Origin: Austropuccinia psidii
Taxonomy: Eukaryota; Basidiomycota; Pucciniomycetes; Pucciniales; Sphaerophragmiaceae
DNA: 64,000 bases
Direction: 5' to 3'
Assembly (NCBI GenBank): GCA_023105745.1
Contig: JALGQZ010000008.1
Span: forward strand, 25,061,866 to 25,125,865
The translations under genes and the position numbers were made by a program. Numbering within the stretch: the stretch's first letter is position 1; each line of letters opens with the position of its first letter. The notes below the pieces were generated by a model. The model searched no databases and was not told where the DNA came from. It saw only the letters and a program-made list of their open reading frames with translations. This document shows positions 1-60,510 of this stretch, piece by piece.

Positions 1-3000
1 CATTCAACACAAGACTCACAAATATACAAGATGCCAAACTGCATAGAATAAAACCTCCAAAAGTAATGGGATATATATCTGGAAAATCAAATATAAGTAT
101 TTTTATGGTATAAAATCAAGAGGAAAAAGAAAACCTGTACACAGGGGAATACTGAACATGTTTTGGGAAAAATTATTTACAAAAAGATATACCATGTTGG
201 GAAGAGAAGCTTATACCAATACAAGGGGTTAAATATAGTAGTGCAAGTGAAATCATGAAGCCCTTTAGAATAATTGACTTGACAGTAATATTTACCCATC
301 ATTCCCAATTAATAAGAGTGAAAGTAGAGCTTTTGTAAATAGACAACTGTCCTAGTAAACACTTTATACTTTGAAATGACTTCTTGTCAATCAATTGTAT
401 AGATATCTCTCACCAAAAAGACAGATATTTCACCATAGGAGACAATAAAAGACAGAAATTTTGTTTTTTAAACAATAAAGAACAAATTACTGTTATAAAA
501 AATGAGTATAGCCCATGAAAACCTTTGTTAACAAGTGAACAGCTTATAAAGGCAGAATTCAATCAAGAATCAACAGAAAAAGTGAAACAAAAATTGATTT
601 ATCCCTCATAAAAATAAAAAATTACCTTTTCAACTGACAAAGAGCCACTATGTGCTATCATTGAACATGAGATAGACATTTTTCTAAATGTGGAAAAGCC
701 CTATCCACCCCCTGTTAAGAAGACCAGCTTACTCAGCTATCCCAGTAGCTGGAGAAGCCTCAGAGGTACACATTAAATAATGAATGGACCTAGGGGTATC
801 AAGAAAAGTAGGGAATAATAAACAGGTAGGGGTCACCACACCTGTTATGATAGCTTGGAATGATGAGAAATAAAGGATGTTAGGGGACCTTAGAGCTCTC
901 AATACCTATACTATCCCTGACAGGTATTCAATACACAGAATCCATGAGACATTAACACAATTTTCACAGTATAAGCTCATCAAAGCTATGGATGCTATAA
1001 AGGGTTTTGTTAAAAATTTCTTTACAAAAAATGCCAAAGAGCTACTGAGGATAATAGTCAACTGTGTAATATATGAATATTTAAGAATGCCATTTGGTAT
1101 GAAGAATGCCCCTTCCCCCTATTAAAGAATTCTGAATACCAAATTTCCTGACAAATTATCAGAAGGATGGTTAATCATCTACATTTATGATATCATAGTT
1201 TTCTCAGAAATTTGGAAAAATTTTCTAATAAGAATAGAAAAAGTCTTACAGAAGATAGTAAAATTAAATATGGAAACCTCCTTGAAAAAATTTCATTTTT
1301 CATATAGTGAATCAAAATCACTGGGAAATCTTGTATCTGGACTAAGCTTGGGCATAGATAAAAATAAAGGAGCAGAAGTACTACTGAAACCAATTATCCA
1401 AGCCAAAGAAGAAATTAAATCATTTCTAGGATTTTCTGGTTATTTCAGACAGCATATAAAAGACTTTTCAAGAATTGCCAAATCCTTTTATAAACTCTTT
1501 TACCAATAGAAAATCTATGAAATTCCTGAAGAAAGGGTTAAAGCATATGAGGAACTGAATAAAGCCCTCAAAAATTCCCCATTTCTTCTAATTACAGATT
1601 GGAAATTACCTTTCAAACTGTAAATTAATTTTTGTGGAGAAGGATTTGGTGCTGCACTATACCAAACACAAATCATCAATGATAAACCTGTTGAAGGAAC
1701 AATTTTTGTTATTTAAAGACAAATTAAGCCAACAGAACAAAGATATGGAGCAAGTCAAATGGAACCTCTTTTCCTAATGTGGGATTTAGAAAGAATACGT
1801 TATTACTTAGATTTGACAGTTTTTGATGTAATCACAGACTGTAATGATTGAAAATATTTATTAAACATGAAGACACCAAAGAGACATATGCTAATTTGGC
1901 AGATTACTATCCAAGAATATTAAGTAAATAGGACCATAGCTCATAAATCTGGAAATATTCATAAAAATGCATATGGGCCATAGAAAGTACACCTGAAAAC
2001 CCAGCATGGGTACCATAGGAATAAAAACATATATAAGGAATATGTGTCACAGACATTGGCACAGAATTCTTTAATCAAGCTAAAGAAATCTATAAGATAG
2101 ACAAGAAATGACATATACTGTTCCAACTCTTAATGAAAGATTGTGAAGACCCATATTTATCTACCAAACTAGATGAAATGTGTAAGAAAGCTTATTATTA
2201 AGGAAGATTTCAACTCCTTCATGGAATTTTTTTGATATAACCAAGCATATATGTTTCATTACCCTGACAAATAGAGTTCTAATAAGCACTATGCTGCATG
2301 AATTACATAATAGTGTTTTATCTGGACATCTTTCACAAGATAGAACACTAGAAAGAGTAAAAAAATGCTCTCAGTGGCCAAATTGGAGAATGGATGTTGC
2401 AGAATATTTCCATACTTGTTACATATGCCAGGATTCAAATACAGTCACAGGAAACAGATTTGGAAACATGATCCAAATCCAAGAACCAAAATCCCTATGG
2501 GAAATAGCTCATATGGATTGGGTTATAGCTCTACCACCAGGAGGAGATAGAATTCATAATGCATGCCTAGTGTTAGTTGGCAGACAAAGCAAGACCCCAA
2601 TGTTCTTACAATTTCATGAATATGACACAGATATGGAAACAGCCATAATGATATGGAATAAACTCATTAGCCATACAGGCTTATCTCAAAATATAATAAG
2701 TGATAGCAATCCTAAATTCACTTCAGCATTATGGAAAAACCTCCATAACATTTTTGGAACAAAATCATCATTATCAACAGCTTACCACCTCAGGCTGATG
2801 GTTTAGCAGAAAGAATGATACAAAAATTGGAAGAGATGATCAGAAGATTCTGTTCCTATGGCCTGAAATTCAAAGACTCTGGCAGCTTTACCCATTATTG
2901 GTGTACTCTAATACCAGCTCTTGAGTTGAAATACAAAACATCAACTCATATATGAAAGTTTTGGAATTCAAGACTTCCTTATGACACTCTCAAAAATGAC

Positions 3001-3590
3001 TTAGCAGACATACACCCAACAGAAAACAGATTTAAGATAATTCTTGACAAAGCAAGACATCATGAAAGCAGGTGCATGCAAGATTGTTTTAAATATGCAA
3101 AAGAAAGATGGTACAAAAGCCATAAGCCAACTAATTTCAAAGTAGGAGACTTGGGCTTAGTATCAACTCTAACATTTAATAATATGAAAGGCCCAAAGAA
3201 ATTTAAATATTCATTTGCAGGCCCCTTCATGATAAGAGCACTAAATGGCCCTAATTCTGTGCAGTTAGAACTAACAGGTGAATCAATGAAAAAACACCCA
3301 ACCTTTCCTGAAAACCTGATAAAACCTTAAAGATCAAGTGATAAGCAGTTATTTCCCCTAAGAAATAAACCACCACTTGAAATTCCACCTCTAGAAGAAG
3401 GATAATAAAAGAAAATTGTAAAATTCTGCAGGGAAAGGAGGACAAGAAGCAAAAAAGAAAGGGAATACCTTTTAAGGTATAGAAACCCAACTAAGGAAGA
3501 TGAATTGCTAATTGAGAAAGATATATCTAATTCTGATAAGCTAATAAGGAGGTTTAGACATTAAAGAAGACCTAAAGAATAGAAAAATTA
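1..3590 (+). pseudogene. Decayed pol of element 1
   Basis: Multiple stops and frameshifts break this polyprotein, but the order of domains is clear. The region near 1-480 aligns in order with the Gag/protease region of element 3. RT follows at about 870-1500, with RALNTYTIPDRYSIHRIHET and the MPFGMKNAP block. The RT active-site box reads YIYD instead of YIDD near 1180-1191, so the first catalytic Asp is lost. RNase H follows at 1600-2000 and the integrase zinc region at 2291-2460 (HELHNSVLSGHL, then CYICQ). The integrase core covers 2500-2960. The last open piece, 3076-3330, is the end of integrase (FKVGDLGLVSTLTFNN). Nothing here could make a working enzyme. The assignment is secure because each block has an intact counterpart in the element at 57.6-60.5 kb. 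Confidence 0.88.
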
Positions 3591-26221: not shown

Positions 26222-26226
26222 TAGAG

Positions 26227-26987
26227 TGTAACAACCATCCATCAGGGGTAAGGGTATTCATTCATACACCCACTCAAACACCTCAAATCAGCAAATCCAG
26301 TATCTGCATCAGCAGTCAGTTTCAGCAATCCTCATTCTGAAACATGCATACAGTTTGGTACATCAATACAGCCTGTCAATACTTGTACAGGATGGATTCA
26401 CCCAATACAGTTTCAATACACCAGTATGAAACTGTATGATCACTCAAATACACCACACCTCTTGTACAGGTTCTGTACAGCTGTACAGGACCTGTATTGG
26501 CCAGACTCAATTCAACAATCAATTATTCTCATGAAAATTCTTCTCTGGATCAAGGCTGGTGATTCTCACATATACCAGCCCCTCTTTCTCCCCCCTGGGG
26601 ACTTTTCCCCAGTTAATTAATTTAGTTTATTTATCATTTCATAATTATTCTTATCCTTATTTTGGGTATTATAATTATTTAATTTTAAGTTAGTCTTTGC
26701 ATTTCTCTCTTCGCCTGTACAGTATGAGTTGGGTGGCCATATCCTTATTAACCCTTCTCTTTCCATTCTGACAGGTTGAAACAGTGGACTTGGACTTGTT
26801 TGTGGTTGGCTCTTCTATTTCTTATTCTTATTTCTTTTGTCGCTGCTTTTCTTATATTCATTATTTTAGTAATTAATCTTTAACACTCTTAAGTGTATCT
26901 CATCTTATCATATCCTTGAGCCCTCCATAAGTGAGTCCCAGTTTACTGAGTGCCAGGCCCTCTTCACTTTGAAGAGCCCCTGTGACA
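26227..26987 (+). repeat. 5' LTR of element 2
   Basis: Starts TGTAACAACC and ends CCCTGTGACA, with TG...CA ends. Contains a near-perfect 32-bp dyad at 26465-26496 built from TGTACAG words, and further TGTACAG copies on either side. Confidence 0.97.
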
Positions 26988-27705: not shown

Positions 27706-29067
27706 ATGCCAGTCCAGCATAGCCCCCCAGCAAAGAATACTAGATCCCAGAAAATTCCAGCTGTTCTCACTCCTACAGCAAGGGCTCCTCTTGACCGCAC
27801 ACCATCAGTTCATCAACTGAGTGCAAATTTGGACAGAGGACCACCAATGGAAGGAGCAGCACCCTCAAGAAGAGGTGGAATGAAATCTAGAAGATCAAGA
27901 TCCTTTTCTGGACTTTTGGGTGGCTACCCTGGCATGTCTGAAGGTGCAAGAGCAAGATTAGGGGAAGTAGAAGATGAAGAGGGGGAAGAGTCTGTGGAAG
28001 AGGAAAATTCTGGGGAAACTGAAGTGGCAGATGCCTTGGCAAATGCTCCAGAGGTACCTCAGGGTTCTAATCTAGCCCTTTCTAGTCAACCTCTTGTCTC
28101 TCAAACTGATCCAAGTCTCCTCAAGATGATGGAGCAGATGACTCAATTCATGGGACAACTCACTCAAGCAGTTGCCCCCAGGGACAATTCCAAAGCCCCT
28201 GCTTTCAAGACTCCATCCATGAAGGCACCTGATTCTTTTGATGGTACTCAAGCTCATAAGTTGAGAGGATTTATCCAATCCTGTCAACTAATTTTCCATA
28301 ATGATCCAGCAAACTTCTTCTCTGACAGGAAGAAGGTTTTGTACTCAACTTCTTTTCTTACTGGTAGAGCTGGCAAATGGATTGAACCCTATCTCTCAAA
28401 TATTTCCAATGAAGACCCTTCCTACCTCCTCAATAATTGGCCATTGTTTGAATCTCAATTATTCACTCTGTTTGGTGACCCCAATGAAGTCAGGAAAGCT
28501 GAACAAGAGTTGGACAATTTGAGGATGAAGGAAAGTGGTCATGTTTCCTTGTACATAGCAGATTTCAGAAGCTTAATGTCAAGAATTGGAGATTGGGGGG
28601 AAAGAGCTTATATCCATGTTTACAGAAGAGGATTGGCATCAAGATTATTGGATCAGTTGGCCTCTCACCCTGGAACTTTTGATACTCTTCAAGAACTTAT
28701 GGATGTCACTCTAGAATTAGACACAAGATATCATGAGAGGCAAAAGAAAAAGGGTGGGAATCAAGAAAAGAAGCCTCCAGTCAGTGGATCCAATCAGTCT
28801 AGGCCTCCTCAAAACTCATTTCAAAAGAGGCCTCATCAGAAGAAGAATAAGAAGGGCAAGCAATTTCAATCTTCAAAGGACAAACCCCATGCTGCTCTCC
28901 TCAATAAGGACAATAAATTAATCGGTTCTGAAAAGGAGAGGAGGATTCAAGCAGGGTTGTGTACTTATTGTGGTGGCAAGCACCCAATTGAAAAATGCTT
29001 CAAGAGACCTCAGAACAAGCCTGGGTCATCATCAAAAGGCTTCCCTAGCAAGCAGGGAAAAGCCTGA
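27706..29067 (+). CDS. Gag of element 2 (453 aa)
   Basis: Structural protein that forms the virus-like particle and packages the RNA. Residues 1-145 are basic then acidic and disordered (GEVEDEEGEESVEEENSGET). Residues about 165-350 hold the capsid-like retrotransposon Gag domain (FIQSCQLIFHNDPANFFSDR, LTGRAGKWIEPYL). A Lys/Gln-rich RNA-binding region follows. A zinc knuckle CTYCGGKHPIEKC sits near 419-431, spaced C-X2-C-X3-H-X4-C, one residue short of the usual X4 loop. The ATG at 27706 is the first start after the repetitive leader. Translation ends at TGA 29065, but the slippery heptamer six nucleotides earlier should send some ribosomes into pol. The frame is intact. I recall closely similar predicted proteins in Austropuccinia psidii. 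Confidence 0.93.
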   Translation: MPVQHSPPAKNTRSQKIPAVLTPTARAPLDRTPSVHQLSANLDRGPPMEGAAPSRRGGMKSRRSRSFSGLLGGYPGMSEGARARLGEVEDEEGEESVEEENSGETEVADALANAPEVPQGSNLALSSQPLVSQTDPSLLKMMEQMTQFMGQLTQAVAPRDNSKAPAFKTPSMKAPDSFDGTQAHKLRGFIQSCQLIFHNDPANFFSDRKKVLYSTSFLTGRAGKWIEPYLSNISNEDPSYLLNNWPLFESQLFTLFGDPNEVRKAEQELDNLRMKESGHVSLYIADFRSLMSRIGDWGERAYIHVYRRGLASRLLDQLASHPGTFDTLQELMDVTLELDTRYHERQKKKGGNQEKKPPVSGSNQSRPPQNSFQKRPHQKKNKKGKQFQSSKDKPHAALLNKDNKLIGSEKERRIQAGLCTYCGGKHPIEKCFKRPQNKPGSSSKGFPSKQGKA

Positions 29068-32000
29068 GTGGGGATCATGATGTGTTCAATGGTTCTCACT
29101 TATTTCCTTCAAGAGCACAATTGTGCACTCTGAATACTAGTGTCAAGAAATCTTTAAAATTTCTTATTTTCTCTTCTGTCTCTGATATTTTTTATAGTAT
29201 TCTCATTGATTCTGGTGCTACAAACTCTTTTATTGCAAAGAATTTTGTTCTCAAGTACTCATTGACTCTGTCAGAGCTCCCTGAAAAGATTCCTCTTTTC
29301 ATTTTGGATTCTAATGAATCCCCTGCCTTGTTCATCACCCATTATACCAAGTGGGTAGTTGACTTGCCTTCCTTCCCAAGCTTTGAATGGGATTTCTTTA
29401 TCATAGATTCACCCAAAGGAGAAGACCTGATATTGGGCTATGATTTCCTTTACCATTTCAATCCCATTATTGATTGGAAAAATGGATTGATCACCTATGA
29501 TTCTAATCATAAGGATTCTAGTGGTATTATTCCTTCTACTAGTAATGACTTAGCCACTGCTGTCAACAGTGTTGCTCTGGCTGGTGAACTTAAGACACCT
29601 TCCATCCCTTCTTCTGTCCATATCCCTTCCATAATTCCCTCTCAGTCATTACTTCCATCAAGAGATGAAGTCTTCAAAGAGATAAAGGATGTTGGAGAAG
29701 ATGTTGCCATATCTTCACTTCATCTCTTCCAAGGGGATATGGACCTTCCTCCCTTATCTTTTCATGCATCCCTGGAGGAGCAGTGGGATGAGGAGGAAGA
29801 GCCAGAAGAAATTGAAACTGTGCTGAAGGTTGTTCCTCCTGCTTATCACCAATATTTGGATGTATTCTCCAAGGTGAAAGCAGAGAAACTTCCTCCACAC
29901 TGCGCCTGTGATCACCATATCGAATTGGAGGGTCTTCTACCTCCAATTGGTGTTATCTACTCATTATCAAATCAAGAGTCAGAAACACTGCGGGCCTACA
30001 TTTCAGAGAATGTAGAGAAAGGTTTCATTAGACCAAGCTCCTCTTCAACAGGAGCACCTGTCCTTTTTGTCAAGAAAAAGGATGGAGGTCTTTGTTTGTG
30101 TGTTGACTACCGCAAACTCAATGCTGTGACTAGGAAGAACAGATACCCTGTTCCTCCTATGAACCAGCTTCTTACCGTATTCAACGGTTCCACTATCTTC
30201 TCCAAGATAGATTTGCGTGGTGCATATAACCTTCTGAGAATCAAAGAGGGGGATGAGCACTTAACTGCCTTTAGAACCAAAAATTGCAGTTATGAGTATT
30301 TGGTCATGCCATTTGGTTTGACCAATGCTCCTGCTTCTTTCCAAAATCTAGTAAATGATATCTTTGCAGATTTTTTGGATGTGTTTGTTGTGGTTTATCT
30401 AGATGATATTATGGTCTTTTCCAGTTCTGAGGAGGAACATGTCAAACATGTGGCCTCTGTCCTCCAAAGACTGAGGGACAATAATCTATTTGCCAAAGCC
30501 TCCAAGTGTGTATTCCATGCCTCAAGTGTGGAATACTTGGGCTATGTTGTTTCAAGTGATGGCCTCAAGATGGATTCTTCAAAAGTTCAGCAAATCCTCA
30601 ATTGGCCTCAGCCCAGAAACATCAAGGCTCTTCAATCTTTTCTTGGCTTTGCCAATTTTTATCAACGTTTCATTAAAAATTATTCCAAAAAAATCACTTC
30701 TCTCACTTCCCTCCTTAAAAAAGATTCTCCCTTTATCTTCAATGAGGAAGCTCTTAGTCAGTTTCAAGCACTCAAAGAAGCTTTCACCTCTGCTCCTATC
30801 TTATCTCATTTTGATCCTTCTCTACCTACTATAGTAGAGACTGATGCTTCTGATTATGCATTGGGCGCCGTACTGAGTCAGGTGAATGACTCTGGAAAGC
30901 ATCCCATTGCATTTGATAGTCGCAAGCTCTTACCAGCTGAACTCAACTATGAAATTCATGACAAGGAACTCCTTGGCATAGTTTGGGCTCTCAAGCACTG
31001 GAGGGCATTTCTTCTTTCTCTTTCCAATCCTTTTGAGGTCTTGACAGACCACTCTTCCTTGCAGTTTTTCATGTCTTCCAAAGTTCTTACTCGTCGTCAG
31101 GCCCGTTGGGCTGAATTTCTCTCAGAATTTCATTTCACTATCACTTACCGCCCAGGCAGGCTGGCCACTTTGCCGGATGCCTTGTCACGTCGGGACGACG
31201 TGTACCCAGAGAGGGGGGTGGACTTCATCAGCAAGAATCCTCACAATTTTCATCAAATACTTAAGCAAGATGGAATTCAAGAGTCAAGATTCTTCTCAAT
31301 CAAAGTGGAAATTTTCTCAGATTTAGTTGACAAGATTCAAGAAGAAGTATGGCAAGACAAAGACTATAAAGAAATACTCAAGCAACTAGCAAGAGGTGAA
31401 TCAGTTCCAGATTATTCTCTTGAACCTCAAGCCAAGTTATTATTATTCAAAGATAGAGTGGTAATCCCAAGCAATGAAGAACTTCAACTCAATATTCTTC
31501 AAAAGCGTCATGACTCACCATTGGCTGGCCATCCTGGCCAGGAGAAGACCCTCAAGCTCATCAAGAGGGATTTTTATTGGGCTGGCATGAATCAATTCAT
31601 CAAGGACTATGTGTCCTCATGTCAGCAATGTTCAAGAAACAAGAACATCCATCACAAGAAGTTTGGATTACTCAAGCCTCTTTCAATTCCATCTGGTCCT
31701 TGGAATTCATTATCAATGGACTTTATCACTCAATTGCCACTGTCCAACAACTTTGATTCAATTTTAGTAGTTGTGGACAGATTCTCAAAAATGGCAATCT
31801 TCATTCCAACTTATGGCACAATCACTGCTCTGGATTTAGCTCAAATATTCATTAGCCATGTATTTTCCAAGCATGGACTCCCAGTCAGTATTGTAAGTGA
31901 TAGAGGATCCTTATTTGTTTCATCATTCTGGACTCAATTGTGTCAGCAGCTCAAGATATCAAGAGATCTTTCAACTGCCTTTCACCCTGAAACAGATGGA

Positions 32001-32783
32001 CAGACAGAGAGGGTAAATCAGATACTAGAACAGTACCTTTGGATGTATGTCAGCTATCATCAAGATGACTGGTACACCTGGCTCCCTCTGGCTGAATTTG
32101 CCTATAATAATGCAGAACATTCATCAACCAAGCAATCACCCTTTTTCACCATTTATGGAAGAAATCCCAGCTTTGACTCAATCCATATTTCTCAAGACTC
32201 ACCTGCTGGAAAGTTATCAACAAAACTCCAATCAGTACAGCAAGTTGTCAAAGAAGAATTAGAGTCAGCAATAAGGAGATTCAAGAAGTATGCAGATAGA
32301 AATAGGGCAATTCCACCTGATTTCCAACCTGGGGACAAAGTATGGCTAGCTTCCAAGAACATCAAGACAACAAGACCCACCAAGAAATTATCAGAAAGAT
32401 GGTTGGGACCCTTTGAAGTTCTTAAGAAGATTGGCAGCCATGCATATCACCTCAAGTTGCCTCAGAAATGGAAGACAGTTCACCCTGTATTCCATGTGTC
32501 CTTATTAGAACCAGTCAAGCATTCAACTATCCCAAATCGTCATCAATTGCCGCCACCACCAGTTTTAGTGGAAGAGCAAGAAGAATGGGAAGTGGCTCAG
32601 GTTCTGGACTCAAAACTCAAAAGAGGTAATTTATGGTATCTTGTAGAGTGGAAAGGATTCAGTGAAGACCCAGAAAGAACCACTTGGGAACCAGCTTCCA
32701 ACCTTACCAACTCACCAGACCTTGTCAAGGATTTCCACTCATTGTATCCAGACAAGCCTGGTCCAAATACCTCAAGAGTTTGA
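29049..32783 (+). CDS. Pol of element 2: protease, RT, RNase H, integrase, chromodomain
   Basis: Made as Gag-Pol by -1 frameshift; numbering here counts from 29082. The aspartic protease has DSGATNSF (43-50) and later ILGYDFL. Reverse transcriptase shows KKKDGGLCLCVDYRKLN, MPFGLTNAP and the catalytic YLDD at 439-442. RNase H has its first catalytic Asp in ETDASDYALG (D588) and later LTDHSSL. Integrase has an HHCC zinc site (HDSPLAGHPG, then CQQC) and the catalytic triad D880, D940, E976, with the typical 35-residue gap between the last two. A C-terminal chromodomain starts near 1169 (WEVAQVLDSKLKRGNLWYLV, then EWKGFSEDP and TTWEP), which in chromoviruses targets integration to modified histones. 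No stop or lost catalytic residue was found, so this looks functional. Confidence 0.95.
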   Translation, partial: QAGKSLSGDHDVFNGSHLFPSRAQLCTLNTSVKKSLKFLIFSSVSDIFYSILIDSGATNSFIAKNFVLKYSLTLSELPEKIPLFILDSNESPALFITHYTKWVVDLPSFPSFEWDFFIIDSPKGEDLILGYDFLYHFNPIIDWKNGLITYDSNHKDSSGIIPSTSNDLATAVNSVALAGELKTPSIPSSVHIPSIIPSQSLLPSRDEVFKEIKDVGEDVAISSLHLFQGDMDLPPLSFHASLEEQWDEEEEPEEIETVLKVVPPAYHQYLDVFSKVKAEKLPPHCACDHHIELEGLLPPIGVIYSLSNQESETLRAYISENVEKGFIRPSSSSTGAPVLFVKKKDGGLCLCVDYRKLNAVTRKNRYPVPPMNQLLTVFNGSTIFSKIDLRGAYNLLRIKEGDEHLTAFRTKNCSYEYLVMPFGLTNAPASFQNLVNDIFADFLDVFVVVYLDDIMVFSSSEEEHVKHVASVLQRLRDNNLFAKASKCVFHASSVEYLGYVVSSDGLKMDSSKVQQILNWPQPRNIKALQSFLGFANFYQRFIKNYSKKITSLTSLLKKDSPFIFNEEALSQFQALKEAFTSAPILSHFDPSLPTIVETDASDYALGAVLSQVNDSGKHPIAFDSRKLLPAELNYEIHDKELLGIVWALKHWRAFLLSLSNPFEVLTDHSSLQFFMSSKVLTRRQARWAEFLSEFHFTITYRPGRLATLPDALSRRDDVYPERGVDFISKNPHNFHQILKQDGIQESRFFSIKVEIFSDLVDKIQEEVWQDKDYKEILKQLARGESVPDYSLEPQAKLLLFKDRVVIPSNEELQLNILQKRHDSPLAGHPGQEKTLKLIKRDFYWAGMNQFIKDYVSSCQQCSRNKNIHHKKFGLLKPLSIPSGPWNSLSMDFITQLPLSNNFDSILVVVDRFSKMAIFIPTYGTITALDLAQIFISHVFSKHGLPVSIVSDRGSLFVSSFWTQLCQQLKISRDLSTAFHPETDGQTERVNQILEQYLWMYVSYHQDDWYTWLPLAEFAYNNAEHSSTKQSPFFTIYGRNPSFDSIHISQDSPAGKLSTKLQSVQQVVKEELESAIRRFKKYADRNRAIPPDFQPGDKVWLASKNIKTTRPTKKLSERWLGPFEVLKKIGSHAYHLKLPQKWKTVHPVFHVSLLEPVKHSTIPNRHQLPPPPVLVEEQEEWEVAQVLDSKLKRGNLWYLVEWKGFSEDPERTTWEPASNLTNSPDLVKDFHSLYPDKPGPNTSRV
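29055..29102 (+). promoter_or_regulatory. Programmed -1 ribosomal frameshift signal between gag and pol
   Basis: In the gag frame the sequence reads G GGA AAA at 29055-29061, a canonical X XXY YYZ slippery heptamer. The gag stop follows at 29065. The pol frame is -1 and open from 29049, so the two overlap by 19 nt. A stem-loop lies just downstream: 29066-29076 (GAGTGGGGATC) pairs with 29091-29101 (GGTTCTCACTT), 7 Watson-Crick and 4 G-U pairs, extendable by U65-A102. The loop is 14 nt. The spacer is 3-5 nt, slightly short. pol has no ATG at its beginning (first candidate GTG), which supports expression by frameshift. Confidence 0.85.
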
Positions 32784-33563
32784 TTTTATGGTGCTTGGTG
32801 GGGAGAAGAAGTTATGAAAGTAAGTTCCTCTCCTGGCATGCACCTTTAAGGGGGTATTCTACCCATATGTTGTTGTAAGCATCACCTTGGCCACTTTGTG
32901 AGCACTTGTCAATTCTTTGGACAGGTTCAGGAAGCATACAACATCAATACCCTCCATTTGGACCTTATCAAGATATGGCCAAATGTCTCTTTCTTTCTTT
33001 TGTTTTCATTTTCTTTCTTTATTATCATTTCATTTTATGCCAATCATCATAATTCAAGACATTCATTACTTCAAGTCATTTACGGCAATTCATTTCAGTA
33101 GTCATTTATGGCAAATCATTTCAGAAGGCATTTATGGCAATTTATTTCAGTCTTATGGTGCTTGGTGGGGAGTGGAAGTTATGAAAGTAAGTTCCATCTC
33201 CTGGTATGCATCCCTGAGGGTTCTACTTCTTGTAAAACATCACCTTGGCCACTCTGTGAGCATCAAATGCTTGGTTTCCATTTTTCAGACACTTCTTGGC
33301 CAGAATCAAGCAACTCACCACAAGAAGGACCAGCCATCAGGAATTTTTCTTTATTTCTTTCTTTACTCTCATTTTCTCTTATTCTTTCATTTTTTCTTTC
33401 TTTCTTTACTTGTATAATTTTCTTCTTTTATTTCTTTAAAGCAGCAGCATCCCCTCCCCAAATCATGTATTGGGAGGTTCCATTATCTTTTTTATTTTTT
33501 ATTTTTTAGTAGTTATAAGAGTGGGGATAGAAGTCAAACCAAACACAAACAAGGAAAAGGAAA
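32784..33563 (+). repeat. Repeat-bearing spacer of element 2
   Basis: Non-coding stretch between the pol stop and the 3' end of the antisense gene. A block beginning TATGGTGCTTGGTGGGGAG occurs twice, at about 32787 and 33154 (367 nt apart). Each copy continues with GTTATGAAAGTAAGTTCC and, after a gap, CATCACCTTGGCCACT. Within it are three tandem 26-bp units near 33076-33152 (CATTTATGGCAA, then CATTTCAG). A long T/C-rich tract at 33340-33500 on the plus strand lies near the end of the antisense transcript. Short plus-strand frames here (32898-33509) are low-complexity and not convincing. Confidence 0.7.
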
Positions 33564-34804
33564 CTAGTTATCTCTACCCAAGTCATCAAAAGTTCTCTGG
33601 AAGTCATTTATCAACTCATCTTCATACCAGGCAAATTTTGCAGCCATCTCTTCAGAAGCAGTACCTGGAATAGTCCTGTCATTGGCATACATAATCACCT
33701 CTCTGCTATTTCTATCAACCCTCCTGAACAATCTGGCCACAGCATCTTGATTTTCACTAGCCGCGTTGGGATCTTCTCTGGTAACCCGGATAGGCCAACG
33801 TTCTCTTCTTTGGAAGACTTGGGCGGCAGGAAACGGCAAAGGGGATAATCCATCTCTTCTTCTGCTGGAGCTGGCCACAGGTTGGAGTTGACGGGAGGTG
33901 GTTATGGGTGAGTTTCTAGGCTGTTGAACTGGTGATGGTCTTACTGCTGGAATCAAGGCAGGCCTGGTGGTATGGGAAGTAGTTGGTGAAGGAGGAGGAA
34001 GGGTTGTAGGAATAGAGGCAAGCATTGGTTGAAAGGTTCTTGGAGTACTGGGAATGACTTGACTTTGGAATCTGGTGTTGGCAAGAGGTTGAGAGGAGGA
34101 ATTGCTGGATGGATGGCCACTTGAATGGGGAATAACTTGAACTTCTTCACCATCCAACTCATCACTTCCTTCAGCATCTGGATCTGATGGGGAATCAACA
34201 ATTCTTCTTAGCTTCTTCACTACTTTCACCACTCCATCAGCATTGGTCCTTGAAATTGGAATTTCTGAGCTGTAGTGGATGGGCCTACCACCAATTGGAA
34301 TGGACCCTCCAACATTAGTCCATCTGGCCACATCCCTCTGCCTGGAACCAGTCACTACATCAAGATATCAGCACCAATTCAATCAAAATATGCAAAGCAC
34401 TCACATTGAGAAAATCCAGAAGTGGCATCAGGGGTAGGCTCCTCAAGAATGGGGAATTCCTGCCCATAAGGCCCATCCTTCCTACTCCACAAGTGTCTCT
34501 TGACCTGGGACAAAGTTGATCCGGTACGGCGGCATGGCTTCTTCCCAATAAAGCAGAAATGGCATTTTGACGATCGAGGATTGTAATGTTGAAAGCAATC
34601 CTTACCCCTGGCCAAACACTCAGTACAGGCAGGATCAAGAACTTCAACTGCTCTGAACCCATCATATGTTTGGGAGGGGTCAAAATGGCCAGAAGACGCC
34701 ATGGAGGGAGAAGACAATCGACTGAAGACGCCAGAACCATGAAGAACAGACGGTGGCGGTGCAGAAGGGGAAGATTCAGTGAGTTCAGTCAGTTTGGAAC
34801 TCAT
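33564..34804 (-). CDS. Antisense spliced gene with a Zn2Cys6 (GAL4-type) cysteine cluster, 396 aa
   Basis: Lies on the strand opposite gag-pol, between pol and the 3' LTR. Exon 1 is 34804-34405 (ATG at 34804, MSSKLTELTE). A 50-nt GT-AG intron spans 34404-34355. Exon 2 is 34354-33564. The splice joins phase 1 to phase 1 and gives exactly 397 codons. Residues 60-91 have cysteines spaced C-X2-C-X6-C-X10-C-X2-C-X6-C (positions 60, 63, 70, 81, 84, 91), followed by Arg-Arg. This is the consensus of fungal binuclear zinc-cluster DNA-binding proteins. The middle is Pro/Ser-rich and disordered. The last about 75 residues (VARLFRRVDRNSREVI, AKFAWYEDELINDF) look helical. The frame is fully open in a young element. 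Plant Ty3 elements (Grande, RIRE2) also carry antisense frames here, but I know of none with this cluster. DNA binding is inferred, not shown. Confidence 0.8.
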
Positions 34805-34906
34805 AACTGAAGAAAGTGCAAGCAGAAGATTCAAGACGTCAGAATCAATCCACTCCACATCAAGAAAAAGAAATTTGACTCAAGGAACTGGGGCCATAAC
34901 TCAATT

Positions 34907-35449
34907 ATGCCCCACCTCAAAGCCTCTAAGGTGAAGGTTCACACCCCTTTGGGGCTGAACTCATCACCCAGGGCCTCCTCTGCAACTCTGGGGGAGGCCA
35001 AGATCTTGATGGTCCTGGACCCCTTCAATGGATCCAGGCCATATATGGTGAAATTTGGAATTGGGCCATTTTTTGGGCCGCTTGGTCACCCTGGGTCCCC
35101 AGCAAATTTGGGCCCAGAGGCTCCATTTTGGTCCTGGGGGCCTCCAATAGCCCCCACGGACCGCGGCCCACGGCCCACGGACCGCGGCGTACGGCCCGCG
35201 GACCGTAGGACCCCAAAACATCAAAAAGGCCTATTATGGCCAAAAAACCAGAAAAATCAAAAAAATTGCCCTAATCACCAAAACACCCAGCAAGGCCAAA
35301 AGGCCATAAAAAGCAAGATACATCAAGATCACTCAAGATGGAGGCCACAGTCCAAAACCCACTGGGAGGGCTGCCTGAGGCCAATTCCTTGGATCATGGG
35401 GACAAGACCCCTTGGAGGTTCATTGAATGGATTAAGTCTGGGCCAATGA
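34907..35449 (+). other. Open frame of 180 codons over the GC-rich segment of element 2 (doubtful gene)
   Basis: Begins with ATG and is open, but the product is a Pro/Gly/Lys-rich string without a domain. Its repeats (PTDRGPRP, PTDRGVRP) are simply the translation of the CGG array. Minus-strand frames are open too, which is common in GC-rich DNA. More likely non-coding upstream region of the antisense gene. Kept as doubtful. Confidence 0.25.
35157..35205. repeat. Array of seven 7-bp CGG-N4 units
   Basis: CGG triplets start at 35157, 35164, 35171, 35178, 35185, 35192 and 35199, exactly every 7 bp. Typical units are CGGACCG and CGGCCCA. CCG triplets within several units create CCGCGG palindromes. 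This is the most GC-rich spot noticed in the window. It lies 353 bp upstream of the antisense start codon, counted on that gene's own strand. CGG triplets in direct or inverted pairs are the known targets of Zn2Cys6 proteins, so this is a candidate operator; simple minisatellite origin is the alternative. Confidence 0.75.
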
Positions 35450-35792: not shown

Positions 35793-36553
35793 TGTAACAA
35801 CCATCCATCAGGGGTAAGGGTATTCATTCATACACCCACTCAAACACCTCAAATCAGCAAATCCAGTATCTGCATCAGCAGTCAGTTTCAGCAATCCTCA
35901 TTCTGAAACATGCATACAGTTTGGTACATCAATACAGCCTGTCAATACTTGTACAGGATGGATTCACCCAATACAGTTTCAATACACCAGTATGAAACTG
36001 TATGATCACTCAAATACACCACACCTCTTGTACAGGTTCTGTACAGCTGTACAGGACCTGTATTGGCCAGACTCAATTCAACAATCAATTATTCTCATGA
36101 AAATTCTTCTCTGGATCAAGGCTGGTGATTCTCACATATACCAGTCCCTCTTTCTCCCCCCTGGGGACTTTTCCCCAGTTAATTAATTTAGTTTATTTAT
36201 CATTTCATAATTATTCTTATCCTTATTTTGGGTATTATAATTATTTAATTTTAAGTTAGTCTTTGCATTTCTCTCTTCGCCTGTACAGTATGAGTTGGGT
36301 GGCCATATCCTTATTAACCCTTCTCTTTCCATTCTGACAGGTTGAAACAGTGGACTTGGACTTGTTTGTGGTTGGCTCTTCTATTTCTTATTCTTATTTC
36401 TTTTGTCGCTGCTTTTCTTATATTCATTATTTTAGTAATTCATCTTTAACACTCTTAAGTGTATCTCATCTTATCATATCCTTGAGCCCTCCATAAGTGA
36501 GTCCCAGTTTACTGAGTGCCAGGCCCTCTTCACTTCGAAGAGCCCCTGTGACA
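35793..36553 (+). repeat. 3' LTR of element 2
   Basis: Same 761-bp length as the 5' LTR. By eye three substitutions separate them: CCAGCCCC against CCAGTCCC, GTAATTAATC against GTAATTCATC, and CACTTTGAAG against CACTTCGAAG. The TGTACAG dyad is repeated at 36031-36062. Followed by the TAGAG target duplication. Confidence 0.97.
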
Positions 36554-36558
36554 TAGAG

Positions 36559-55605: not shown

Positions 55606-58600
55606 AAATTGGTAAGCTTGATGGAAAGTTAACTAAAATTGCATCAGATATAGTTGATTTAAAGAAAAATGACAAGAAATACACTTAATTGCACCAAGTG
55701 ACAAATGCCAGACTTGACTCAATTACCAATTCTTGCAAAAGAATTGAAAACATGTGCCAAGTTCAGCATGATGAGATGGAGGAGCTTTCTATTTTTAAGG
55801 TGAATGATCAACTTACAATTTTACAAGACCAAGTCTTAAAAATAGTTGAGAATACCAATCAATTTGCTATAAACTTAGCAAAAAGTGACAGTGAAAGGCA
55901 GAAGTTGAAGAATGAAATAGTTTCAAGTGTGGAACAAATTCATAAGAATCATGAACCACATATGCCAAGACATTCTACACCTTTAACTGAAGAAAAACTT
56001 TCTGTTAAAGAAAGTCTTACACCATTCTTAGGAGAGAATGCCTACTCTGCAAGAGATATTCCCAAAATAGAAGAATGGCCAACATTCTCTGGTGAAGGAG
56101 AATAGAACCACATTGAATTCATCAGGACTATTGATATGTTGCAAGAAGACTTTAATATACCTGATGAGATCATAGTGGGAAAATTACACTGTTTGTTTAC
56201 CAGAACTGCAAAGAAATGGTATTACAAAATGAGGATTGATCATGGTAAACATGATTGGTCTTGGTGGAAGTCTGAAGTAATTACCAAATGGGCCAACAAT
56301 TCTTGGAGTTTTAAAATAGAAAGTTCCTTTGAAAGTTCCATTTTTAACTCAGAGAAAGATAAACCACTTACTTGGTTCTTCAAACAAAAAGACAGATTAT
56401 CTGCTTTACAACCAGATATGTCTGACACTATGATTAATATGAAAATATTAAGAAAGTGTGGAGGAGAATTGGAACATGCTATCAAAAGGAGATGTGTGGA
56501 ACCCTGTTAAACAGAAGACTACATTAATGCTATGGAAGATATCATTGCCAGAACAAGAATTGGTAAAACTTGGTCTAAAATCCCAACAGAATCCAAGATG
56601 ACCTCTAAGATTCCCAGAGAGGATAAGAGACCAGAAAAACCTGTCTTAAAGTGCCATCAATGTGGAAGCACTTCACATTTAGCCAACACTTGCACAAAAA
56701 AGACAAAAATCGATGAAGTTCAAGTCATTGAAGAAGTTCAGTGTACTGCAGAGAAGGAGGAATCTGATCAAGATTCTGCAATCTCTGAAGATATACCAGT
56801 GGAGGACTATCCCATTGAAAACATCACAGCTTTCTTTGAAGTCACTGAAGTCCATACCCACTTGCCACAGTATAGTGAAGATTGCTACAACCTTAGTAAT
56901 GTTCAGGATGCCAGAATGTGTAAAACCAAACCTGCTAAAGGAAAAGGTTATACTGCTGGAGCATCTTGTATCACATCAATTCTGATGAATAATGTTGAAG
57001 CCAAAGTCAATTTGGATACAGGAGCATTTTGCACTTGTGTAGGCAAAGATTATCTCCAAGCTATACTTCCTGGATGGAAAAACCATCTATTACCAATAGA
57101 AGGTGTACAATTTAGTAGTGCCAGTACCAATATGTACCCTTTGGGCATATTAGACACTATTCTTGTATTTCCCCATCCAACAGGAAGTATAAGAATGAAA
57201 GCTGAAGTTGTAGTAATGGACAACTGCACATCTCAACATATCATTCTTGGAAATGATTACTTAAGTATTTATGGTATTGATATCAATAACCATAAAGAAA
57301 GATATTTCACAATTGGAGAGAACAGGAAAAGAAAATTTGCTTTCTCCAATATGCCAAAGCAAATATCAGTAGTATCTTCTAAGAGAGATACTCATAAGGA
57401 AGAATTTGTGTCCACACAACCTGTTGAAGCACAAATCAATCCATCATTATCACCAAAAATGAAGGATGAACTTATTGACATGTTATACACATAAAATACT
57501 GCATTTGCCTCTGATAATGAACCATTAGGTGCTATAAGAGGACATGAAGTTGATATTACTCTTAATATTGACAGACCATATCCCCCAGTACTTAGAAGAC
57601 CAGCTTACCCAGCCAGTCCCAGAGCTAGAGAAGCCTTGGAGAAACATATCCAAGAGTTAATTCAACTTGGTGTACTAAGGAAAGTAGGCCATAATGAGGA
57701 GGTTGAAGTGACAACACCTGTTATCATTGCTTGGAATAATGATAAGTCAAGAATGGTCGGAGATTTTAGAGCTTTGAATACCTACACAGTTCCAGATAGG
57801 TATCCAATCCCTAGAATCCAAGAAACCTTGACTCAATTATCTAAAGCCAAGTATATAACATCAATGGATGCATTTAAAGGTTTCCATCAGAATTTTTTGA
57901 CGCCTAAAGCTAAGAAATTACTTAGAATTATCACTCACTGTGGTATTTTTGAGTATCTTAGAATGCCATTTGGCATTAAAAATGCTCCATCTCATTATCA
58001 AAGAATGATGAATACCATCTTCCCCACAGAATTGTCTGAAGTATAGCTTATCATTTATATTGATGATATTATCATATGTTCTGACTCATGGTCTTTGCAC
58101 CTTGAAAGACTTGCAAAAGTAGTTCACAAAGTTGCAGAAGTGAATATGAAAATTTCACTTAAGAAATGCAACGTTGGTTTTGAAGAACTTAAAGCATAAG
58201 GACATCTTGTTTCTGGTTTAAGCTTGGGTATTGACAAAAATAAAGTGGCAGCAGTGCTACTTAAGCCAATACCCAAGAATAAAAAAGAAATGATGTCTTT
58301 TCTTGGATTTGCATAGCTACTATAGGCAACACTTGAAAGACTTTTCAATTCTATCCAAATCACTCTATAGAATCTGTGATCAACAGACTGTATTTGAGAT
58401 GACACAGGAGAGAATTAAAGCTTATGAGAAGATAAAGAAAGCCCTTACAGAAGCACCTTTACTCCTCATTCCTGACTGGAATATTCCTTTTAAGTTTTAC
58501 ATTGATGCATGTGGAGATGGATTAGGGGCAGCCCTACATCAAGTCCAAATTGTTGATGACAAACCTACAGAAGGACCAGTTTGTTCTATCTCAAGGCAAA

Positions 58601-60510
58601 TCAAACCAACAGAAGCCAGATATGGTGCAAGCCAAATGGAGTGCTTATGCTTGGTATGGGCACTTGAGAAATTACACTATTATCTTGATGGCAGTGTTTT
58701 TGAAGTTATAACTGACTGTAATGCAGTAAAATCACTTCTTAACATGAAAACTACCAACAGACATATGTTGAGATGGCAAATAGCTATTCAGGAATATAGA
58801 GGAAACATGACTATAGTTCATAAAGCAGGAAACATTCACAAGAATGCTGATGGACTTAGTAGATGGGCTTTAGCCAACACTCCTGATAACCCAGCTTATG
58901 TACCTTTGGAAGCTGAACCACAGATTCCAATTGAAGGAATTAATATAACTGATATTGGGACTGAATTCTTTGAGGAGGTCAGAGAATCTTATAAACAAGA
59001 CAAGAATTGCTATATCTTGACTTCTTTATTAGATAAAGACTGCAAGGATACATCTTTAGCTAATGCACTTAATGAAGTTTGGAAAAATTCCTATTCTGAA
59101 GGAAGATTTCACTTGTTTGATGGGATCATTTACCACAGAACCAAACATTCTTGTGTAATGACATTATGCAGCAGATTGCTTATCAATACAATTCTTCATG
59201 AATTACATGATAGCATCTACTCTGGACACCTGTCAGAGGACAGAACACTTGAAAAAGTAAAGAACTGTGCATGGTGGCCATCTTGGAGAAAAGAAACCAT
59301 TGAATATTGCCATACCTGTGACAGATGCCAAAAAGCAAACAGGAGTACAGGCAAGAAATTTGGACTTATGATCCATATTCAAGAACCAAAATCCCCATGA
59401 GAAGTTGTTCACATGGATTGGGTCACAGCACTTCCTCCAAGTGGTGACAGAAGTTATAATGCTTGTTGAGTCATTGTAGAAAGATATAGCAAACCTCCCA
59501 TATTCTTACCATGTCATAAAGATGACACTGCTACGGATACAGCTCTTCTTTTATGGAGTAGAGTTATTTCTCATACAGGATTATTTAAGAATATCATAAG
59601 TGACAGAGATCCCAAATTCACATCTTCACTTTGGACCAATCTTCATAGATTGTTTGGGACTAAGTTATCATTCTCTACAGCATATCACCCTCAAACAGAT
59701 GGGCTAGCAGAGAGGATGTTTCAGACTTTAGAAGACATGATCAGGAGATTCTGTGCTTATGGATTAGAATTCAAAGACTCAGATGGCTTTACCCATGACT
59801 GGTGCACTCTGATACCTGCATTAGAATTGGCATATAAGACATCAGTCCATTCTTCCACAGGACAAAATCCTGCTATGTTAGAGAAAGGATGAAATCCAAG
59901 ACTCCCAGCAGACACACTGAGGAAAGACTTGATTGACATTGATCCTACAGCTTCCAGCTTCAAAATAATGCTTGATAAAGTAAGACTTCATGCAAAACAA
60001 AGTATGGATGATGCTTTTAATTATGCAAAACAGAAGTGGGACAAGAGTCAAAAAGTACCAGAATTCAAAGTAGGGGACTTAGTTTTAGTTTCAACCTTGA
60101 ATTTTAATAATATAACAGGCCCAAAGAAACTTAAAGATTCTTATGTAGGACCTTTTGTTATTATTGCTTTACATGGAACCAATGCAGTTCAAGTGGAATT
60201 GAGTGGTGAATTGGAAAATAAACACCCCACCTTTCCAGTCAGCTTGATAAAGCCTTATCAACCAGCTGATAAAGAATTGTTTCCTTTAAGAAACCCAACT
60301 CCTTTAACTGTACCACCTGTGGAACAGAATGAAGACAAAAAGATAAAGAAAGTCATTAAAGAAAGGAGACTTAGGGGTAAAAATCAAAGAGAATATCTTG
60401 TCAGATATAGAAATCCAGTACATGAAGATGAATGGATGGCAGAATCAGAAATACCTGACTCAGATAAACTCTTAAGAAGATTTAGACATGAAAGAAGGCC
60501 ACAAGCCTGA
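54812..60510 (+). pseudogene. Gag-Pol of element 3, broken by stops and frameshifts
   Basis: Starts with ATG 54812 (MVHTRNGSNY). Gag includes a coiled-coil-like part (55690-56000), a capsid-like domain (FIRTIDMLQEDFNIPDEII, KKWYYKMR, at 56110-56510) and a canonical zinc knuckle CHQCGSTSHLANTC near 56650. Protease has LDTGAFCTCVG near 57012 and HIILGNDYL. RT has a retained YIDD at 58059, RNase [13 protein letters not shown], integrase [17 protein letters not shown] and a D, D, E triad (MDWVT, SDRDPKF, AERMFQ), then a chromodomain-like end (YLVRYRNPVHEDEWMAESEI). Premature stops are at 55686, 56103, 56508, 57492, 58044, 58197, 59398, 59467 and 59890. Frameshifts are near 55340 and 58314 (an extra T). 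At least three stops replace expected Trp codons. Confidence 0.93.

Follow-up and report, generated by a model that had tools for sequence, protein, structure and literature searches.

For decades, genes have been recorded that run antisense to the coding strand of long terminal repeat (LTR) retrotransposons and have no known function. In plant LTR elements, additional antisense open reading frames (ORFs) at the position considered here are a known kind whose function is not known (PMC7264820), and the same paper mentions cases outside plants, such as Boty. For the Retand elements, the available part of a further report describes a combination of antisense additional ORFs, a predicted DNA-binding domain and tandem repeats (PMC11963269). 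HBZ of human T-cell leukemia virus type 1 (HTLV-1) is, according to the accessible text of two papers, a transcription-modulating protein made from a spliced antisense transcript of a retroelement (PMC1459196, PMC3185765). Here we analyzed a stretch of 64,000 nucleotides from the rust fungus Austropuccinia psidii (contig JALGQZ010000008.1, positions 25,061,866 to 25,125,865 of the forward strand; hereafter the window), in which a complete Ty3 chromodomain retrotransposon carries an antisense gene between pol and its 3' LTR. Judged by its sequence and that of its copies, this is almost certainly a selected, spliced protein gene. Its conserved antisense intron, the evidence for selection, a cysteine cluster and an adjacent heptamer array in a rust fungus are what is new here. 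Literature searches, limited to open-licence papers, retrieved no description of this antisense gene, and term searches of the available text of three rust or A. psidii genome papers gave none.

An initial annotation of the window had proposed that a minus-strand frame is joined into one protein of 396 residues by removal of a 50-nt GT-AG intron. This structure was reproduced exactly, with the joined exons encoding 396 residues followed by a stop codon. The gene consists of the following parts:

34405..34804, minus strand: exon 1 of the antisense gene, 400 nt, with the ATG at 34804, encoding residues 1-133 and the first base of codon 134
34355..34404, minus strand: antisense intron, 50 nt, placed by its GT-AG signals, with a GTGAGT donor, a CTGAT branch-like site and a TAG acceptor
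33564..34354, minus strand: exon 2 of the antisense gene, 791 nt, through the stop codon
34532..34627, minus strand: six-cysteine cluster, residues 60-91, located by translation
34824..35034, minus strand: conserved stretch 5' of the antisense start codon, a candidate promoter or 5' untranslated region

Copies of the gene were collected from the genome (1.015 Gb, 84 contigs); the first 24 bases of the gene have 1,277 exact matches in it, and a control has none. A DNA search yielded 2,937 candidates, of which the 40 scored were all 99-100% identical to exon 2; a search with a diverged protein yielded 9,231 candidates, 118 of them scored. The 48 copies studied comprise 8 young ones, including that of the window, and 40 hand-picked from a ranked listing. 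Of these 40, 34 were stop-free in the exon-2 match, and exon 1 was not used in the choice. Their identity to the window over the gene ranges from 78 to 99%, with a median of 85%. An opposite-strand pol lies 629-835 bp past the gene end in 46 of the 48 copies, and in two there is no pol match. This linkage supersedes an earlier test of whether pol and antisense proteins have neighboring locus tags, which had given 3 adjacent pairs, all at distance 1 and on equal-length contigs, where 0.6 pairs were expected within distance 3 and up to 4 arose in 1,000 random placements. Stop-free reading in register was found in 19 of 48 copies, and over both exons in 13 of 40. One copy that lacks a pol match (L052) has 42 CpG within 1 kb upstream of the gene, the highest number among the 48, and perhaps lies beside a host gene or in an unmethylated region.

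At the protein level, 707 related proteins were obtained at E ≤ 0.001; the best 120 are all hypothetical proteins of A. psidii MF-1, with 57-93% identity in local alignment. A length-shifted search for long homologs returned 4 A. psidii entries and no others. None of the MF-1 proteins matches the young copies exactly, which would be explained if young repeats were collapsed or missing in that short-contig assembly.

The splice signals are conserved among the copies. The donor GTGAGT is kept in 42 of 48 (34 of 40 in the diverged fetched set), the acceptor YAG in 45 (37 of 40) and the CTGAT branch-like site in 43 (35 of 40). The intron measures 51 nt in 32 copies, 50 nt in 13, and 52, 53 and 32 nt in one copy each; the one-base change in length is common to subfamilies and leaves the downstream frame intact. 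Retention of the intron leads to an in-frame stop in all 47 testable copies. The sense strand reads CT...AC at the intron borders and therefore genomic RNA retains the intron, which survives reverse transcription because it is antisense to that RNA. From this the initial annotation had argued that the intron reveals expression from a minus-strand transcript. The logic of the argument is sound, but what the conserved signals point to is selection for splicing and not an observed transcript.

Selection on the protein was analyzed from nonsynonymous (N) and synonymous (S) variants among the 40 fetched copies. Codon columns covered by fewer than 30 of the 40 were excluded, likewise variants more than one base away from the commonest codon, and N/S was scaled to an unweighted opportunity of 3.29. 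The initial annotation had named a dN/dS near 1 as a sign against the gene; when shared variants are compared with singletons, this objection does not hold. Singletons look neutral (0.89), and N/S falls to 0.73 for variants present in 2-3 copies, 0.20 in 4-7 copies and 0.15 in at least 8 copies (singletons versus variants in at least 4 copies, Fisher p 8e-25). The fall was obtained for exon 1 alone (N:S 137:50 for singletons, 25:60 for variants in at least 4 copies, p 1e-11) and for exon 2 alone (p 9e-15). Such a fall with sharing is expected if the majority of copies are dead and mutate without constraint, whereas the protein is kept in lineages that spread. It indicates that purifying selection acts on the antisense protein in these spreading lineages.

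The same was seen among the MF-1 proteins, for which 117 rows including the window protein were compared with 60 neutral simulations using the measured mutation bias (4 of 121 rows were dropped for having fewer than 280 aligned residues). Old replacements have a mean BLOSUM score of +0.56, compared with -0.58 ± 0.17 in the simulations. By branch depth, from recent to old, the mean rises from -0.44 over -0.27 and +0.02 to +0.56, and the simulations stay near -0.55. The ratio of old replacements to recent ones is smallest in residues 287-396 (0.050 versus 0.085 ± 0.008 simulated).

Several observations weigh against so simple a picture. Residues 45-59, 101-133 and 201-286 hold more old replacements than simulated. 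Recent replacements score a little higher for conservativeness than those of every simulation (-0.438 versus at most -0.463), and therefore the neutral null is imperfect. In addition, the 97 in-frame runs of exon indels, set against 10 frame-breaking runs, amount to only 11 distinct events, compared with 10 frame-breaking events found in one copy each. Counted as distinct events, in-frame and frame-breaking indels number 2 and 5 in exon 1 and 9 and 5 in exon 2, where the counts are biased by the choice of mostly stop-free copies. All shared exon indels keep the frame. Exon indels were downgraded to weak evidence after distinct events had been counted, and since the N/S result holds in exon 1 alone, our estimate for the gene was left unchanged.

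The only cysteines of the protein are residues 60, 63, 70, 81, 84 and 91, spaced C-X2-C-X6-C-X10-C-X2-C-X6-C as annotated initially. Their conservation between copies, on which the initial annotation had made its proposal depend, is at first sight poor: all six are kept in only 22 of the 40 fetched copies and in 28 of 120 MF-1 proteins (29 of 121 rows once that of the window is counted). However, this criterion needs correcting, because the losses are driven by a mutational hot spot at TGC/TGT in which the cysteine codons sit. In the DNA of copies L021-L060, G-to-T changes at TGC/TGT (C to A at GCA/ACA) stand at 4.3% and 4.0% among rare variants, compared with 0.7-1.9% in other contexts, and across this 40-copy DNA it is about 2 to 6 times commoner than elsewhere. 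Among the 121 MF-1 rows the change reaches 9-16%, versus 0-5.5%, on both strands and in cysteine and other codons alike; Cys to Phe (72/629) occurs at a rate equal to that of G to T at TGC/TGT of other codons (289/2,481). Raw cysteine loss was consequently rejected as an argument against function. The TGC/TGT decay is a mutational signature worth following in its own right; old repeat pairs of the window gave no clear sign of it.

Variants within residues 60-91 number N1:S14 in at least 8 copies and N4:S2 in 4-7 copies, and with both shared classes combined this segment has the lowest N/S relative to opportunity among five segments. Old replacements in it are conservative (mean BLOSUM +1.24 versus -0.82 ± 0.33 simulated), and old cysteine losses number 2, compared with 7.0 ± 3.1 in the simulations, 2 of 60 of which reach that value. 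On the other side, the count of old replacements in the segment does not lie below the simulations (ratio 0.088 versus 0.104 ± 0.023), label shuffling of the cysteine changes was not significant (p 0.15-0.22), and internal to terminal changes at the cysteines (28:75) are no different from those at other hot-spot sites (76:233). Constraint on the cysteines is thus favored by the simulation comparison and the N/S counts only, and we lean towards it.

Proteins of the Zn2Cys6 type (PF00172) have the consensus C-X2-C-X6-C-X5-12-C-X2-C-X6-8-C. The spacing of the antisense protein agrees with it, and to that extent the GAL4-type zinc cluster of the initial annotation stands. No further comparison supported the assignment. 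The proposed hidden Markov model search against PF00172 stayed below the gathering threshold, so that Zn_clus was matched neither by the protein nor by any of the 40 family members searched. No Pfam family at all matched the 396-residue protein; among the 40 members six other families match one member each (best E 0.038), and one of 19 domain pieces matches Zn_clus at E 1.1. In a PDB search with the single protein no chain was matched. A domain profile compared with 177,635 PDB sequences had the zinc-cluster protein LAC9 as its sole match, at E 2.2 and with the wrong halves aligned, and profile comparison with yeast domains by hhalign likewise pairs the wrong halves. AlphaFold models were unusable, with a predicted local distance difference test (pLDDT) score of 41 for the whole protein and 44 for the cysteine domain. 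Six aligned yeast domains invariably have an Arg following the second cysteine and a Lys preceding the third; the antisense protein has Leu64 and Asp69 at these positions, each in 47 of 48 copies. Because the spacing fits and nothing else does, the protein was not filed as a member of Zn_clus. From its cysteine pattern the N-terminal part is probably a zinc-binding module, and the protein might be a DNA-binding regulator, for and against which the indications are about equal. Control of the LTR or of host genes, which the initial annotation had also suggested, would be conjecture.

Upstream of the antisense gene lies a tandem array, with an inverted repeat next to it:

35157..35205, minus strand: heptamer array of 7 YGGNCCG-like units, 353-401 bp upstream of the antisense start codon
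35136..35155, minus strand: inverted repeat GGGGGCTATTGGAGGCCCCC, with ATTGG inside, adjoining the array, identified by sequence

The array, whose unit number varies, stands roughly 270-450 bp ahead of the start codon. At constant spacings of 4-14 bp, the longest run of CGG has 7 members at 7-bp steps, compared with at most 3 in 1000 shuffles. The array region is the densest CGG/CCG site of the window and holds 12 of the 62 CpG of the CpG-poor element. Array length varies rapidly: the 8 young copies have from 3 to 14 units and differ in exon 2 by only 0-2 bases. Of 41 arrays bounded by usable anchors, 40 have a length divisible by 7 and one, that of L022, measures 12 bp (an anchor was missing in 3 of 48 copies, and 4 of 45 arrays, those of L031, L040, L041 and L051, were judged by eye to be mis-anchored and excluded). 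In diverged copies many array CGG have decayed. Genome-wide, a five-unit pattern gave 2,175 matches (overlaps counted) and the reversed pattern 3. Of 29 array loci covered on contig C1, 13 are followed downstream, in the same orientation, by the exact gene start at a distance of 374-527 bp, where 0.02 were expected, and within a 700-bp range none has a gene start on the wrong side or strand.

Paired CGG triplets, whether inverted, direct or everted, are what zinc-cluster proteins usually target, according to the accessible parts of two papers (PMC9000951, PMC5559640). The heptamer array is built of CGG pairs, and it could be a binding site of the antisense protein, a hypothesis with less than even odds. 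A point against this is that, among 8 array loci that were read, the gene is present in 4 and absent in 3 whose flanks are kept, and in 1 the array stands in another context; since gene-less loci keep the array, the two are not inseparable. In the three gene-less loci (L066, L067 and L068) the match jumps from window positions 34798-34871 to 33559-33595, and they could either have arisen by deletion or belong to a sister lineage that lacks the gene. A target of the regulator in the 5' LTR was also considered and rejected, since the 5' LTR has no CGG or CCG. A 180-residue sense ORF (34907-35449, plus strand) crosses the heptamer array; it has no Pfam match and is probably a by-product of the GC-rich stretch.

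The host element has all parts of a Ty3 chromodomain LTR retrotransposon, namely an LTR pair, a target-site duplication, gag, and a pol with the order protease, reverse transcriptase (RT), RNase H, integrase and chromodomain:

26222..26226 (left) and 36554-36558 (right), no strand: target-site duplication TAGAG, identified by sequence
26227..26987, plus strand: 5' LTR, 761 bp, identified as an LTR pair with 3 mismatches to the 3' LTR
35793..36553, plus strand: 3' LTR, 761 bp, partner of the 5' LTR
27706..29067, plus strand: gag, an ORF with Pfam matches to Ty3_capsid and Retrotrans_gag
29082..32783, plus strand: pol, an ORF with protease, RT, RNase H, integrase and chromodomain by Pfam

The initial annotation had already placed the gene in a young Ty3 element; the element is complete, with 3 differences between its LTRs. 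The GC content of the window is 33%, and most of the element is CpG-depleted. The published A. psidii genome is, as stated in the available part of its description, just over 1 Gb in size with 33.8% GC and more than 90% covered by transposable elements, whose CpG depletion is ascribed there to deamination of methylated cytosines (PMC8063080). In the 5' LTR, 13 TACAG/CTGTA words were found at 26349-26497 and 26715-26722 (mean 1.9 and maximum 9 in shuffles); several form the palindrome CTGTACAG, and they are a candidate site cluster of another factor. Two diverged Ty3 pol regions with a mutual identity of 70-76% lie elsewhere in the window (718-3399 and 57594-60483). The pol relatives P0142, P0174 and P0202 (58-66% identity) come from sources without A. 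psidii names, and related elements may thus occur in other organisms.

In the mechanism that we propose, a minus-strand transcript would start upstream of 34804 and be spliced once, and the spliced transcript would be translated into the 396-residue protein; the intron, being antisense, would persist through reverse transcription. The N-terminal part would bind zinc via the six cysteines, and the protein would regulate the element as a nucleic-acid binder, most likely at its own antisense promoter region with the CGG-N-CCG-like array. We give an even chance to the proposal as a whole, in which a Ty3 chromodomain element carries an antisense accessory gene for a zinc-binding and nucleic-acid-binding regulator of the element. 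An extended form of it, which we consider unlikely, would be a self-contained antisense module, in which a spliced zinc-cluster-like factor is combined with tandem CGG-N-CCG sites of its own just upstream of its promoter. The fast change in site number would then give each copy a different regulatory dose, and the gene-less relatives would be non-autonomous clients controlled in trans.

A possible, though not probable, alternative is a zinc-binding accessory protein without a role in transcription, which would serve the particle or the integration complex as an RNA chaperone, a partner of Gag or a nuclear-import helper, and in which the cysteine spacing would be convergent. The missing sequence relation to Zn_clus and the absence of the basic positions of the yeast domains agree with such a protein, as does the position of the lowest old-to-recent replacement ratio in the C-terminal residues 287-396, where a low-confidence model has two helices; the gene-less relatives may be helped in trans. 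It is harder to reconcile with six cysteines that are the only ones of the protein and have the exact zinc-cluster spacing, and it leaves the upstream CGG array unexplained. Quite improbable in our view is a protein that counters host silencing by RNA interference or DNA methylation, likely a main obstacle to Ty3 elements in this genome. More than 1,000 copies of the gene start and the CpG depletion of the element, in line with that ascribed to methylation in A. psidii transposable elements, would suit such a function, whereas the protein has no Pfam match of any kind. Very improbable is that the antisense RNA itself is the functional part, which would pair with genomic RNA and thereby either supply the silencing machinery or restrain transposition, a role suggested for antisense transcripts from other elements (PMC7264820), with the frame as a by-product: an RNA-only role is contradicted because the amino acids are under purifying selection. 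A chance open frame or an annotation artefact, for which it may be said that gene callers favor open frames, that the best 120 of the 707 relatives are all hypothetical proteins and that most fetched copies were chosen as stop-free in exon 2, can practically be dismissed, as exon 1, unused in that choice, shows the drop in N/S as well and 13 of 40 copies are stop-free over both exons.

For a regulatory accessory gene of the kind we favor, the A. psidii element makes a long-standing question specific and testable, with more than 1,000 exact gene starts, selection, splice signals and a candidate array. A fungal LTR element with an extra antisense gene has a counterpart in the Boty-like elements of Botrytis cinerea, which, according to the title of a 2011 study by Zhao and colleagues, reportedly carry an additional antisense gene, brtn; the likeness lies in that description. 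Botrytis cinerea belongs to a different fungal phylum from A. psidii. With GAL4, LAC9, PPR1, PUT3, HAP1 and LEU3 the antisense protein shares the cysteine spacing, and their CGG-pair targets resemble the array of such pairs. It differs from regulators of the GAL4 class in the missing Zn_clus match, the absence of two invariant yeast positions, its X10 loop and its origin in an antisense transposon gene. HBZ is a bZIP protein whose first exon lies in the 3' LTR, whereas both exons are internal here, so that the comparison is an analogy and implies no homology. The antisense ORFs of Retand and other plant elements are, as far as the available descriptions go, alike in position, orientation and conservation in many copies. 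In contrast to them, the A. psidii gene resides in a fungal host and encodes a six-cysteine cluster with no match to TRP28 or another Pfam family, selection on it was measured on the DNA of its copies, and it has a conserved intron, a word that does not occur in the available part of the Retand report (PMC11963269).
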